45,547 bases of DNA, from contig JAFJUR010000011.1 in NCBI GenBank assembly GCA_017859995.1, positions 1 to 45,547 of the forward strand, given 5' to 3'. The notes under the pieces were generated by a model, which saw nothing but the letters and a program-made list of their open reading frames with translations, was not told the origin of the DNA and searched no databases. A program made the translations under genes and the position numbers. Position 1 is the stretch's first letter. Each line of letters starts with the position of its first letter. Shown here piece after piece: positions 10,582-16,054 of the stretch. This DNA is from Holophagaceae bacterium. GTDB taxonomy: Bacteria > Acidobacteriota > Holophagae > Holophagales > Holophagaceae.

Positions 10582-11391
10582 TCAAAGGAAGCGCAGCGGC
10601 TTCTCCTCGGGCGCGAACCCGTGGCGGACGGCCTTCTCAAAGAAGAGGGCCAGGCTCTCCCGCTCCGCCTCGCCCAGGGTGTAGCTGATGTTCTCGGTGA
10701 GGTACTCGTGCAGCTCGATCTTGGTCCAGCCGATGGTGCGCCGGGCCTCCTCGATGATGGCGGGCAGCTGGGACTGGCCGATCTCCAGGCTCTTGTGGAA
10801 GAAGGAGGCCACGCCGCCGGGCACCGGCAGTTCCGGGGCGTCCTTCCGCACCAGCCACAGGGCGAAGACGAAGGGCAGGCCGGTCCAGGCGTGCCACTCC
10901 TCAGCGAGGTCAAGCACGAAGAGTCCCTGCCGCGGCGCCCGCATGGCGGCGTCCCCGATCATCAGGGCTGCGTCGTTCGCCGCCAGCATGGCCGGCAGGT
11001 CGGGCCCCATGTCCGTGACCGCGGGGCTCACGCCGTAGCGTTCCCGCAGCAGCAGCTGCGCCAGCACCACGCTGGTGCGGCTGGAGGTGTCCAGAGCCAG
11101 GCTGCGGATCTGCTCCGGCGGCACCTTCGAGAGGATCACCACGCTCCGCACCCGCTTCGGCGAGGCGATGCAGAGCCCCGGCACGATGCGCAGGTGGGGG
11201 ATCCGCAGGTATTCGATGGAGCTGACGATGCCGGCATCGACCTCGCCATCCCGCAGGCGGTCGGCGCAGGCCGAGGGATAGTGGAACTTGAGGTGGAAGT
11301 GCTCCCAGCCCAGGCCGTGCTTGAAACCGTGGTTCAAGGGGGCGGCGTTCAGGTAGTCGATGATGGACAGGCGGAAGGGGGCGGCGGCCAT
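10582..11391 (-). CDS. mqnA: Chorismate dehydratase MqnA (futalosine menaquinone pathway)
   Basis: RLSIIDYLNAAPLNHGF, DGEVDAGIVSSIEYLR, LALDTSSRTSVVLAQLLL. Confidence 0.85.
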   Translation of the reverse strand: MAAAPFRLSIIDYLNAAPLNHGFKHGLGWEHFHLKFHYPSACADRLRDGEVDAGIVSSIEYLRIPHLRIVPGLCIASPKRVRSVVILSKVPPEQIRSLALDTSSRTSVVLAQLLLRERYGVSPAVTDMGPDLPAMLAANDAALMIGDAAMRAPRQGLFVLDLAEEWHAWTGLPFVFALWLVRKDAPELPVPGGVASFFHKSLEIGQSQLPAIIEEARRTIGWTKIELHEYLTENISYTLGEAERESLALFFEKAVRHGFAPEEKPLRFL

Positions 11392-11462
11392 GCCTTGAGT
11401 CTACCGGCCATTCCGGGCTCCGAACCCTTGGACAGGCCCCGTCAGCCTGCCATGATGCCTGC

Positions 11463-11927
11463 ATGGTCCTGTGGCACTACGAGCTGAACACCCCGATGGG
11501 GCCCATGCGGGCCGCCTTCGACGTGCGCGGCCGCCTGAAGGAGCTGGTCCTCGAAGGTCATGATCCCCGCAAGACCAGCCCCCTGCCGCCCAGGGAACAG
11601 CGGGAAGCCAAGCGCTTCCTGGATCGCCAGCTGGATGCCTTCCTGGCGGGCACCCTCCGCACCTTCACCGTGCCCCTCGATCCCGTGGGCACCGCCACGG
11701 ACCTGCGCATCTGGGACACGGTGCGGACCATCCCCTACGGCCAGTCCCGCCAGCCCGGCGACCTGGCCGCCTGGCTGGGGCTGGAGGAGGACGTGGTCAT
11801 CATGGCCTGCTCGCGGAACCCCATCGCCCTGCTGATTCCGGCCCATCGGGTGGTCCTGCCCGGAGAGGGGCCCCTCCCGAAGGCGTTGCGCGACCTCGAA
11901 TCCGGTCTTGGATGGCGGAAGCCCTGA
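11463..11927 (+). CDS. MGMT-fold protein lacking catalytic Cys (PAHR in place of PCHR)
   Basis: MGPMRAAFDVRGRLKELVLEG... RIWDTVRTIPYGQSRQPGDLAAWLG... ACSRNPIALLIPAHRVVLPGEG; read directly as CTG ATT CCG GCC CAT CGG. Confidence 0.85.
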   Translation: MVLWHYELNTPMGPMRAAFDVRGRLKELVLEGHDPRKTSPLPPREQREAKRFLDRQLDAFLAGTLRTFTVPLDPVGTATDLRIWDTVRTIPYGQSRQPGDLAAWLGLEEDVVIMACSRNPIALLIPAHRVVLPGEGPLPKALRDLESGLGWRKP

Positions 11928-11950
11928 TCCCAAAAAACCGTGATTCTGAC

Positions 11951-12475
11951 ATGCTTAGGGTCATGCCGGCCGCCTTCCACCCCATCAGCACGCCCCTGGG
12001 AGACCTCGGCGCGGCCTTCGGCGGCGACGGCAAGCTGGTGCAGCTCGTCCGATTCCACGGGAAACCTCCCGACCCGCCAACCGGGCCCGCACCGAAGAGC
12101 CTGCCCTACCTCAAGCGCCAGCTGGAGGCCTACTTCTCGGGCAACCTGAGGGATTTCAACATCCCCATGGTCGCCGAGGGCACGGAGTTCCAGCAGCGCG
12201 TCTGGAAGGAACTCCAGAAGATCCCCTACGGCCAGGCCATCTCCTACCTGGAGCTGGCCCGGCGCCTGGGCGACGAGAAATGCATCCGCGCCGCGGCCCG
12301 GGCCAACGGGGCCAATCCCATCGTCATCCTCATCCCCTGCCACCGGGTCATCGGCTCCGACGGCTCCCTGGTGGGCTACGGCGGCGGGCTGGACATGAAG
12401 GAGTTCCTGCTCCGGCTGGAAGGGGTGCTCCCCAAGGCCCCGCCCCAGCCGAGGCTGCCCTTGGAATGGGACTGA
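11951..12475 (+). CDS. ogt: Methylated-DNA--protein-cysteine methyltransferase (Ogt-type)
   Basis: RVWKELQKIPYGQAISYLELARRLGDEKCIRAAARANGANPIVILIPCHRVIGSDGSLVGYGGGLDMKEFLLRLEG. Confidence 0.93.
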   Translation: MLRVMPAAFHPISTPLGDLGAAFGGDGKLVQLVRFHGKPPDPPTGPAPKSLPYLKRQLEAYFSGNLRDFNIPMVAEGTEFQQRVWKELQKIPYGQAISYLELARRLGDEKCIRAAARANGANPIVILIPCHRVIGSDGSLVGYGGGLDMKEFLLRLEGVLPKAPPQPRLPLEWD

Positions 12476-12530
12476 ATTCCGGCGGCGACCAGCGGAGGAC
12501 TTCCCCGGGCGCGACCCGTAGCATGGAGCC

Positions 12531-13943
12531 ATGCGCTGGTCGGACGAGCACCTCTACGAACGGATCCTGGCGAAGGACGCGTCCTTCGACGGCCGGGTGC
12601 TCACGGGCGTCCTCACCACCGGGATCTACTGCCTGCCCTCCTGCCCGGCGCGCAAGCCGCTGGCGGCCAACGTGCGCTTCTTCCCCGACGAGCCGGCCGC
12701 GCGGGCGGCGGGGCTGAGGCCCTGCAAGCGCTGCCGGCCCGATGCGTTCTACCGGGGCGAGGACCCGGACCTGGCACGACTGGAATCGGCCATGGCCCAG
12801 GCCGCCGGGCACCCGTCAGAGGTGCCCGACGTGAATGCCCTGGCGAAGGCGGCGGGGGTGGGGCTCACCAAGTTGAAGGACCTGTTCCGGGCGCATGCCC
12901 ACGCCGAACCGGCGGCTTTCCTTCAGCGTGCGCGCGTCCAGTGGGCCTGCGCCCGGCTGGCGGCGGGCGATGCCGACCTGGCGGATGTGGCTTTCGCCTG
13001 TGGCTATGGCAGTGCGTCGGGCTTTCACGAGGCCTTCCGTCGGCAGACGGGCCTCACGCCAGGCGCCTACCGCAGCCTGTTGGATGCCACCTCCTTCCGG
13101 TTGCCGCTGCCTGCGGGGCTGCGGATCCCGGACGTGCTCGCCTTCCATGGCCGCGATCCCGAGAGCGTTTCGGAACGTGTGGTGGGGCGGCGCCTGCGCA
13201 AGGCCTTCCTATGCGACGGCCGGCCCGCCGTCCTCATGCTCTCCTTCGGCGAAGACGTGCGCGTCGAGCTGACCGGCGCTGCGGGTCCTGGCGCCATGGC
13301 CAGGGCCCACGGCGCCGCCCTGCGGCTGCTGGGCTGGCAGGGGGACCCGGAACCCTTCGAGGCCGCCCATCCCGGACTCGCCCGGGGCCGGGAAGGCCTG
13401 CGGGTGCTGCTGACGCTGGATCCCTTCGAGGCCCTGGTCTGGGCCATCCTGGGCCAGCAGGTGAACCTGGCCTTCGCCTACGGGCTGCGCCGGGACCTGA
13501 TCCGGCTCGCGGGCGTGCCGGTGGGCGACGGCCTCATCGCCCACCCCGATGCGCCGCGCATCGCCTCGCTGCGGATCGAGGACCTGCAGGCCCTCCGCTT
13601 CTCGCGGCGCAAGGCCGAATACCTGGTGCATGCGGCCGGGGAGGTGGCTTCGGGACGGCTGGATCTGGAGGGACTGATCACCGCCACGGGAGCCGCCCGG
13701 GCGCTGCTCTCCTTGCGGGGCTGCGGGCCCTGGACCGCCCAGTACGTGCTCATGCGGGGGCTCGGCTTTCGCGACGGGGTGCCCGTGGGGGACGCCGGCC
13801 TGACGCTGGCCCTGCAGCGGTGGTTCGCCCTGGACGCCCGCCCTGACGCCGCCGCGACGCTGCGGCTCATGGCGGCCTTCGCGCCCCATCGCAGCCTCGC
13901 CACCTTCCACTTCTGGGCCAGCCTGAAGGGCACCCCGGCGTGA
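12531..13943 (+). CDS. AdaA-AraC-AlkA fusion: Ada methyl-phosphotriester domain, AraC HTH, HhH-GPD 3-methyladenine DNA glycosylase
   Basis: FDGRVLTGVLTTGIYCLPSCPARKPLAANVRFFPDEPAARAAGLRPCKRCRPDAFY (four Cys); AraC HTH GDADLADVAFACGYGSASGFHEAFRRQTGLTPGAYR; AlkA ILGQQVNLAFAYGLRRDLI, LRGCGPWTAQYVLMRGL. Confidence 0.93.
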   Translation: MRWSDEHLYERILAKDASFDGRVLTGVLTTGIYCLPSCPARKPLAANVRFFPDEPAARAAGLRPCKRCRPDAFYRGEDPDLARLESAMAQAAGHPSEVPDVNALAKAAGVGLTKLKDLFRAHAHAEPAAFLQRARVQWACARLAAGDADLADVAFACGYGSASGFHEAFRRQTGLTPGAYRSLLDATSFRLPLPAGLRIPDVLAFHGRDPESVSERVVGRRLRKAFLCDGRPAVLMLSFGEDVRVELTGAAGPGAMARAHGAALRLLGWQGDPEPFEAAHPGLARGREGLRVLLTLDPFEALVWAILGQQVNLAFAYGLRRDLIRLAGVPVGDGLIAHPDAPRIASLRIEDLQALRFSRRKAEYLVHAAGEVASGRLDLEGLITATGAARALLSLRGCGPWTAQYVLMRGLGFRDGVPVGDAGLTLALQRWFALDARPDAAATLRLMAAFAPHRSLATFHFWASLKGTPA

Positions 13944-14443
13944 GCGGCCTTCACCGGGTCGACACGGGCCTGGGATCGCTCCAGGTGGCTTTCGACGGCC
14001 AGGGCGCACTCCTCTACCTGGGTTTCGCCGGGCACGAGTTCCGGGAGGGGTTGCTGCGGAGGATCGCCCGCCTTCAGCCCACCGAGGCCCCGCGGGCGGA
14101 GGCCGTGGATCGGCTCGTGGCGCAGCTGGAAGGCTATGCGACCGGCCGGCGAAGGACCTTCGATGTGCCCCTGCGGCTGCACGGCAGCCCCTTCGAACAG
14201 CAGGTCTGGGCGGCGCTGCGGCGCATCCCCTTCGGCGAGACGCGCAGCTACGGGCAGCTGGCCGCCAACCTGGGCGACCCGAACCTCAGCCGCGCCGTAG
14301 GCCGCGCCAACGGCGCCAATCCCATTTCCATCCTCGTGCCCTGCCACCGGGTGATCGGCGCCCAGGGCGCCCTTACCGGCTATGCGGGCGGGCTCGACAT
14401 GAAGGCCCGGCTGCTGCGGCTCGAGGGCGCCCTCAGGCCTTGA
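13940..14443 (+). CDS. ogt: Methylated-DNA--protein-cysteine methyltransferase (second Ogt-type)
   Basis: FEQQVWAALRRIPFGETRSYGQLAANLGDPNLSRAVGRANGANPISILVPCHRVIGAQGALTGYAGGLDMKARLLRLEG; GTGA overlap with upstream gene. Confidence 0.93.
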   Translation: MSGLHRVDTGLGSLQVAFDGQGALLYLGFAGHEFREGLLRRIARLQPTEAPRAEAVDRLVAQLEGYATGRRRTFDVPLRLHGSPFEQQVWAALRRIPFGETRSYGQLAANLGDPNLSRAVGRANGANPISILVPCHRVIGAQGALTGYAGGLDMKARLLRLEGALRP

Positions 14444-14792
14444 CGGGCCGCAGGGGGCCCCGCTCCAGGGCCATGCGCGTCTCGCCGGTGGCGGCGAAGG
14501 CGGCCTTCAGCACGGCCAGGCCGCGGTCCATGTCCACCTCGCCGCAGCTGAAGAAGTCCACGGCCGCGAAGCCGTGCTCGGGCCAGGTGTGGATGGCCAG
14601 GTGGCTCTCCGCGATGATCACGGCCCCGCTCACGCCGTAGGGGCTGAAGTGGTGGAAGCTGTGGGTGACGATGGTGGCGCCGGAGGCTTCCGCCGCCCGC
14701 AGCATGGCGGAGGTGACGCGCTCAAGGTCGGAGAGGGCCGCCGGGTCGCAGCCGGTGAATTCGGCCAGCAGGTGATGTCCGAGGGCGGTCAC
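14433..14792 (-). CDS. speH: S-adenosylmethionine decarboxylase proenzyme
   Basis: GHHLLAEFTGCDPAAL...THSFHHFSPYGVSGAVIIAESHLAIHTWPEHGFAAVDFFSCG; ESHLxIHTWPE processing-site motif. Alternative ATG start at 14819. Confidence 0.92.
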   Translation of the reverse strand: MTALGHHLLAEFTGCDPAALSDLERVTSAMLRAAEASGATIVTHSFHHFSPYGVSGAVIIAESHLAIHTWPEHGFAAVDFFSCGEVDMDRGLAVLKAAFAATGETRMALERGPLRPVKA

Positions 14793-16054
14793 GGGCGCCT
14801 CGAGAGCAGGGCCAGGCATTCCACGTGGCTGGTGAGGGGGAAGAGGTCGAGCACGGCGAGCTGGTCGAGGGACCAGGCGCCCGCGAGGCGCTTCAGGTCC
14901 CGGCAGAAGGCCGCGCCGTCGCAGCCCACCAGCACGAGTTGCCCCGCACCCGCCGTGGCCAGGCGCTCGCAGAGGGCCGGCTCCAGTCCGGCCCGGGGCG
15001 GGTCCAGCAGGATGACGTCCCCGGTGGCGCCGAGGCCTTCGGGCACCCAGGCGGCCACGTCCGCCACCAGGCATTCCGAGGGGAGGTCGGCGGCTTCCAG
15101 GTTGCGCCGGGCCCAGGCTACGGCCGCCTCGCCGGATTCCACCAGCACGCGGTGGCTGAAGCGGGCGCCGAGCAGGGCGGAGAACAGGCCCACGCCACCG
15201 TAGAGGTCGTACAGGGTGGCGCCCTTCAGGTCCCAGGTGCGCAGCAGGCCGCCGAAGGCCTCCGCGGCCCAGGGGGGGCTCACCTGGAAGAAGGCGCCGG
15301 GCTCATGCCGCAGGGTGGCCCCGCCGAGCCGGTGCACGATGGGCTCGGTGCTGCGGTGCCAGCCGTCGGGCTCGAGCAGCCAGGTCCGGCCCCGTTCGTC
15401 GGTGGCCCAGACGTGGTTGGCGGGCGTGCCCGTGGAGAGCTCCCACCGGCCGGGCCGGGTGGGCAGGGCAAGGCCGGCCAGGGCCTCCTGGAGCCGGGGG
15501 ATCGCGTCGGAGAGGGGATCCGCGGCGGCGGGGCAGGCCCGGATGGGCACCAGGGCGTGGCTGTGGCGCTGGTGGTAGCCCAGGGCCGAGCCGTCCCAGT
15601 GCAGCTGGATGCGATGGCGGCGCGCCGAATCGGGCGCCGGGTGCCAGGTCCAGGGCACCGCCTCGCCCAGTTGGCGACGCAACAGGTCGGCGGCCATCTG
15701 GCGCTTGAGGTCAGGGGCGTGGCGCCCGGCTTCCCACAGCTCGCAGCCGCCGCAGCTTTCCGCCACGGGGCAGCCCGCCTCGGCCCGCCTCGAGTCGCGG
15801 GTGACCCAGCGGGTGACCCGGCCCTCGCCATGGCGGGCCTTCCAGATCACCTGGGCCTCCACCACCTCGCCGGGGAAGAGCGCGAGGGGCGCCTCCAGCA
15901 GGAGCAGCCGGCCGTCCTCGGAGCGGCCCACGCCCTTGCCGCCCCAGGCCAGGCGTTCGATGGGGCCCCGCCAGCTTTCCTTCGGGGCGGGGGAATTCCG
16001 ATATGCTGGCGAAACCCTCGCCGATTTGGAGCCTGATTCCGCCTTGCGATTCAC
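14789..16054 (-). CDS. rlmD: RumA/RlmD-type RNA (uracil-5-)-methyltransferase
   Basis: TRAM-like N-terminus, CPVAESCGGCELW, FFQVSPPWAAEAFGGLL, LYDLYGGVGLFSALL, VILLDPPRAGL, LVLVGCDGAAFCRDLKRLAG. True start is probably internal to the ORF. Confidence 0.87.
   Translation of the reverse strand: MNRKAESGSKSARVSPAYRNSPAPKESWRGPIERLAWGGKGVGRSEDGRLLLLEAPLALFPGEVVEAQVIWKARHGEGRVTRWVTRDSRRAEAGCPVAESCGGCELWEAGRHAPDLKRQMAADLLRRQLGEAVPWTWHPAPDSARRHRIQLHWDGSALGYHQRHSHALVPIRACPAAADPLSDAIPRLQEALAGLALPTRPGRWELSTGTPANHVWATDERGRTWLLEPDGWHRSTEPIVHRLGGATLRHEPGAFFQVSPPWAAEAFGGLLRTWDLKGATLYDLYGGVGLFSALLGARFSHRVLVESGEAAVAWARRNLEAADLPSECLVADVAAWVPEGLGATGDVILLDPPRAGLEPALCERLATAGAGQLVLVGCDGAAFCRDLKRLAGAWSLDQLAVLDLFPLTSHVECLALLSRRP

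Follow-up and report, generated by a model that had tools for sequence, protein, structure and literature searches.

The window analysed here, a stretch of 45,547 nucleotides, is contig C158 of the 3.2-Mb draft genome of a Geothrix, a soil bacterium (Holophagaceae). It carries four consecutive plus-strand ORFs, P1 to P4, whose positions in an earlier note made from the sequence alone proved exact and whose Pfam matches all lie above the gathering cut-offs. A divergent ORF on the minus strand (10582..11391), which we take from its sequence to be mqnA-like, bounds the locus on its left in most relatives, and syntenic copies, 71-96% identical, occur in most Holophagaceae genera. The right edge is formed by a speD-like ORF together with a minus-strand ORF (14789..16054) that is syntenic in relatives and presumably encodes an RlmD/TrmA-like RNA methyltransferase, a name that comes from reading the sequence and not from a family search. 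Scanning the window for Rfam families and for tRNAs yielded no matches.

P1, P2 and P4 each match the Pfam family DNA_binding_1 (MGMT). P1 (11463..11927) appears to be a two-domain MGMT-fold pseudoenzyme, with an N-domain at residues 1-75 and a degenerate C-domain at residues 76-154. P2 (11963..12475) reads as an intact Ogt with PCHR, the Tyr, the Arg finger and a GYGGG loop. Its ORF is open from 11912 but, since the Met at 11963 is common to the orthologues, the latter is most likely the start, so that an overlap of P1 and P2 is not required. The Cys, Arg finger and loop Tyr of P2 are kept in 44 of 44 copies; its flipping Tyr is present as read from the sequences, the tallied alignment column being the one before. 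Upstream of this pair, a promoter-like site on the plus strand (11429..11456; TGGACA-16-CATGAT with an extended TG), a consensus match only, ends 6 bases before the P1 ATG, and a TGCSATSAT-like box recurs before P1 across the genus.

P3 (12531..13943) is an AdaA-AraC-AlkA fusion, with Pfam matches to Ada_Zn_binding (residues 9-71), HTH_18 (104-181) and HhH-GPD (303-447). Its AdaA Zn domain (12555..12743, 92 bits) contains C34, C38, C65 and C68, the counterparts in the alignment of the Zn Cys in E. coli Ada (1ZGW). This domain is followed, on the same strand, by the AraC-type HTH (12840..13073, 74 bits) and by the AlkA-type glycosylase part (13101..13940, with HhH-GPD at 13437-13871), where VGDAGL of the catalytic-Asp motif PVGDAGL aligns with VGDVGL of 2H56. 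P4 (13940..14443) is an intact Ogt with PCHR, whose Cys, Arg finger, loop Tyr and flipping Tyr are kept in 30 of 30 copies. The GTGA overlap joining it to P3 and the PCHR motifs of P2 and P4, all described in the earlier note, were borne out, and the 4-nt overlap is conserved in relatives.

Two gene pairs at one locus

Locus sequences were taken from Geothrix and other Holophagaceae genera, and genes were mapped by tblastn. The order in the genus is mqnA (minus strand), P1 P2, then P3 P4 where these occur, then speD and rlmD (both minus). P1-P2 is present in approximately 42 of the 47 genus genomes and P3-P4 with an intact AdaA in about half of the 47, absences being weak in the many relatives that are draft or metagenome assemblies; a single conserved four-gene unit was rejected on these counts. 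P1-P2 stands without P3-P4 in G017, G038, G039, G041, G042 and G045, P4 occurs without P3 in G009 and P3 without P4 in G012. P1 adjoins P2 wherever a complete P1 is present (41 genomes), and in other genera the same locus is mostly occupied by a single Ogt. In G035, P2 and P3 are separated by an insert of about 1.8 kb that carries unrelated ORFs (L129:3998-5860).

The cluster is thus conserved outside this strain, although the four genes do not form one conserved unit, and the single self-contained four-gene module of the earlier note has to be given up. Indeed, P1-P2 has its own promoter-like site, lacks the 24-bp element found before P3, occurs without P3-P4 in other genomes and predates that pair. 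The locus is composed of two modules, P1-P2 and P3-P4, between mqnA and speD/rlmD. P1-P2 is the older unit, probably constitutive, and a known-type Ada-AlkA and Ogt pair was added beside it in Geothrix.

The AdaA-AlkA fusion beside ogt, which the earlier note set against E. coli Ada, is not unusual, being the known arrangement of mycobacteria (PMC7432924). There, Ada-AlkA and ogt are transcribed more strongly under methylation stress, and their products bind one another (PMC7432924). The pair of M. tuberculosis and M. smegmatis resembles P3-P4 in the fusion of AdaA to AlkA and in its separate Ogt gene (PMC7432924), whereas Geothrix has a conserved upstream element and an adjoining older Ogt/pseudo-Ogt pair, and some Geothrix copies have lost AdaA along with the element. 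With E. coli Ada, P3 shares the AdaA Zn-Cys switch and the AraC HTH, but its fusion partner is AlkA and not an MGMT domain.

The element upstream of P3

Directly upstream of P3, on the plus strand, lies a conserved 24-bp element, ATTCCRGCGnCGnnnnKCGGAGGA (12476..12499), which we propose as an Ada operator; a conserved -10-like box, TAGCAT (12519..12524), stands 6 bases before the P3 ATG. When up to one substitution was allowed, the element was found at 26 of 26 loci where AdaA is kept, a set that includes G016 (P3 cut by the contig end) and G024 (P3 frame-broken). Of the six AdaA-lost loci, one has it, that of G048, whose Cys core went with an internal deletion; G014, G015, G022, G037 and G046 lack it before P3, and it was found at no locus without P3. 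The association of element and AdaA gave a Fisher p of 3e-5, the AdaA-lost loci being few, partly related to each other and not all independent. A zero-mismatch scan of the 47 genomes returned essentially one site per genome, at P3, and a wider Ada regulon was discarded on this result. Within the window, at three mismatches, one match was found against 0.2 expected. An exact off-locus match lies in G030 (L232, G030:C114:67178), with no evident repair gene adjoining.

Since the element goes with the presence and loss of AdaA, it is probably the Ada operator of P3-P4, as far as sequence comparison can tell; it could instead belong to a promoter and not be a binding site. As we infer it, the expression of P3-P4 would depend on a methylation switch and on operator binding. 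The AdaA domain of P3 would repair methyl-phosphotriester, by which P3 would become an activator; activated P3 would then raise its own promoter through the element at 12476-12499, and the AlkA-type glycosylase and the Ogt P4 would be raised together by translational coupling. The adaptive-response module of the earlier note can be kept for P3-P4, with its four Zn Cys, AraC HTH, AlkA Asp, 4-nt overlap and AdaA-linked upstream element. On the other hand, it is unlikely that all four genes make up a single Ada-controlled operon. They lie on the same strand, with a 55-bp gap between P2 and P3 in the window, and read-through from P1-P2 into P3-P4 is conceivable; however, the element and the -10-like box stand directly before P3, the promoter-like site of P1-P2 comes without the element, and the P2-P3 gap reaches 1.8 kb in other genomes.

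In several Geothrix genomes (L102, L120, L131, L134, L135 and L138), P3 no longer has AdaA while its HTH-AlkA frame is still open, and in L102 and L138 N-terminal remnants persist around an internal deletion. Such copies provide a natural series of sensor-less versions of the same glycosylase. Furthermore, the element, together with the repeated loss of AdaA along with it, makes a testable Ada operator candidate in Acidobacteriota.

Active site, selection and origin of P1

Three MGMT functions had been assigned to this locus, but P1 cannot work as an MGMT. Compared with Ogt/MGMT proteins such as M. tuberculosis OGT (4WXD), P2 and P4 retain every catalytic residue; P1 shares the two-domain fold but differs in having no active site and an inverted domain conservation. 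The PAHR noticed earlier in P1 is present in the window, with Ala127 (codon 11841..11843, plus strand) at the nucleophile position, but it is not a conserved motif, this position being A in 24, S in 8, T in 5, C in 3 and V in 1 of the 41 complete orthologues. At the flipping-Tyr position, the 41 copies have P (34), S (3), V (2), I or M (one each), and at the Arg-finger position D (25), E (13), G (2) or A (one); in the alignments, the GYxGG loop is deleted in 41 of 41. All 41 share His128, Arg129, N119 (the Asn hinge), E146 and also a new Cys116, which intact relatives lack. The copies with Cys at the nucleophile position (PCHR) are those of G013, G049 and G004 (L117, L119, L121), where the Tyr, the Arg finger and the loop are missing. 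No premature stops occur among the P1 copies found; in G040, P1 was lost by deletion, leaving a remnant only, and P2 is kept.

An AlphaFold model of P1 has a full two-domain MGMT fold with a pLDDT of 91 from a 53-row alignment, an orthologues-only alignment giving a pLDDT of 64. Its best PDB match is M. tuberculosis OGT (4WXD, TM 0.80), and ATLs match over the C-domain only (TM 0.39). The residues of P1 fit neither an active Ogt nor an ATL.

The two halves of P1 are nevertheless under purifying selection, in a pattern inverted with respect to its active neighbour P2. In 19 disjoint genome pairs, picked by low dS and not from a tree, so that their independence is only rough, the dN/dS of P1 was 0.112 for the N-domain (95% bootstrap 0.085-0.140) and 0.246 for the C-domain (0.154-0.329). 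The corresponding N- and C-domain values were 0.254 and 0.076 for P2 (19 disjoint pairs) and 0.316 and 0.129 for P4 (8 pairs). The N-domain of P1 had the lower value in 17 of 19 pairs (Wilcoxon p 5e-5), and the direction was reversed for P2 in 17 of 19; an all-pairs dN/dS version of this pattern was also computed. Since dS is alike in both halves of P1, the constraint acts on the protein and not at the nucleotide level. Invariant residues occupy 38 of the 75 N-domain positions in the 41 genomes.

In an ML tree, several deep nodes of which are weakly supported, P1 groups with the intact single-copy Ogts of g3, g4, g5 (G053), g7, g8 and g10 (P1-type), and P2 with G054 and g6 (P2-type). A tandem Ogt duplication within Geothrix, with complementary domain loss in P1 and P2, was dropped because the tree puts the two in older sister families, with differential loss in other genera; a fast N-domain such as that of P2 is normal for Ogts. 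In substitutions per site, the P1 stem branch is 0.14 long in the tree of the N-domain and 1.33 in that of the C-domain. C-domain identity is 0.38 between P1 and the intact P1-type Ogts, compared with 0.61 among the latter; N-domain identity is 0.62 in both comparisons, across genera for those Ogts, and we conclude that the P1-type N-domain was already unusually constrained and stayed so after the loss of catalysis. The P1-type signature comprises W4 H5 Y6 E7, R22, D34 P35, T38, L41, P43, Q46 R47 E48, T67, T69 and P74. In a sample of 247 Acidobacteriota genomes, the P1 profile at E <= 1e-25 matched Holophagaceae only.

Possible roles of P1 and related proteins

Since the whole active site was lost and the other half kept almost unchanged, P1 probably does something other than repair. 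It would most likely be a non-catalytic MGMT-fold protein acting through its N-domain interface, and perhaps a partner of P2, a suggestion prompted by human AGT, where the cooperative contacts for clusters on DNA are in the N-domain (PMC10779285). According to the reading that we favour with some confidence, P1 would be an N-domain pseudo-Ogt acting with P2, and P3-P4 a separate Ada-type inducible cassette. P2 would be the working Ogt of the older module; P1, a former Ogt, would have given up both the flipping of DNA and the transfer of alkyl groups in the ancestor of Geothrix. It would have been retained because of its N-terminal domain, which would most likely serve as an interface to other proteins and act together with P2, for example through cooperative assembly on DNA. 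P2-type Ogts work alone in g6 and G054 and P1-type Ogts do so in other genera, so that neither needs the other in principle. Furthermore, Ogts ordinarily have a faster N-domain, as P2 does, and this pattern therefore does not prove a division of labour between P1 and P2.

A fair minority of the weight goes to an N-domain that acts on some other repair or replication protein, the place of P1 beside P2 being historical. Indeed, the N-domain signature is common to intact single-copy P1-type Ogts without P2 at the locus; against this, P1 is always found with P2 and the sequence suggests no other partner. It is scarcely credible that P1 is a decaying duplicate without function: the active site is lost, the nucleophile position drifts and G040 holds only a remnant, but the whole-gene dN/dS of about 0.18 and the N-domain value of 0.11, the half of N-domain positions that are invariant (38/75) and the lack of premature stops in the copies found all speak for constraint. 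We give as little credence to the idea that P1 uses Cys116, a recognition-helix residue invariant in the genus, as an acceptor at a new position or for redox chemistry. This Cys is present in 41 of 41 P1 and absent from intact relatives, but it takes the place of an Asn of that helix and not of a catalytic residue, and P1 no longer has the pocket loop, the Tyr or the Arg finger.

A flipping or marking role, named in the earlier note as one part of the module, would for P1 be that of an ATL, which binds O6-alkylguanine, recruits UvrA and hands the lesion to excision repair; such a role does not fit P1 and is highly improbable. PAHR is the motif of the Thermus ATL, and the nucleophile Cys is missing from P1 in 38 of 41 genomes, as this reading would have it. 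PAHR as a conserved ATL signature was rejected, the site drifting among P1 orthologues. ATLs keep the Tyr and the Arg finger but have neither an N-domain nor the Asn hinge (PMC10779285). In P1, on the contrary, the N-domain is the most conserved part, the Tyr and the Arg finger are lost as well as the Cys, and the Asn hinge is kept (N119, 41 of 41) with the pocket loop lost; moreover, the structural match to ATLs is partial (TM 0.39) and the genome has a normal ATL (PWHRV, 134 aa) at another place. P1 thus resembles S. pombe Atl1 and E. coli ATL in having an MGMT fold without the nucleophile Cys, but those proteins keep lesion flipping and drop the N-domain, whereas P1 does the reverse.

To return to an N-domain pseudo-Ogt, the N-domain of Ogt/MGMT proteins is usually seen as a poorly conserved cap, with a role mostly in cooperative DNA binding. 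That it was held fixed while the active site was discarded suggests a separable N-domain job, and P1 is a natural protein for finding it. Somewhat short of an even chance, P1 may found a class of alkyltransferase paralogues that have no catalysis and mirror the ATLs; in these, the N-domain interface would control or assemble an active Ogt or another repair protein, with the flipping half as a scaffold. This class would have arisen more than once in Holophagaceae, as Geothrix P1, as a Cys-less protein of g9 and partly in G072. No inactive Ogt paralogues turned up in a search of the literature, which is not proof of absence.

The g9 protein (G066, G067 and G070; L201:1997-2491, L202:1707-2192, L203:2011-2601) represents a second Cys-less two-domain MGMT family, with PSHR or PTHR and no Tyr or Arg. 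Its identity within the genus is 0.81 in the N-domain and 0.63 in the C-domain, for three sequences only, and it adjoins an ABC-F ATPase in G066 and G070. In G072 (g10), the Cys is kept, the C-domain is strongly diverged (0.44) and the N-domain is normal (0.63). At the mqnA locus of g9 (L151-L153), an HTH-AlkA fusion without AdaA is followed by an Ogt.

Further genes of these families were observed in the source genome. The regular ATL, with PWHRV and no N-domain, lies at L005:1444-1848 (G000:C240). A 299-aa protein composed of an AraC-HTH and an intact MGMT domain, corresponding to an Ada without the AdaA Zn domain, is encoded at L210:1735-2634 (G000:C94), and a third free Ogt with PCHR, at L211:1557-2033 (G000:C17), adjoins a RuvX/YqgF-like ORF.
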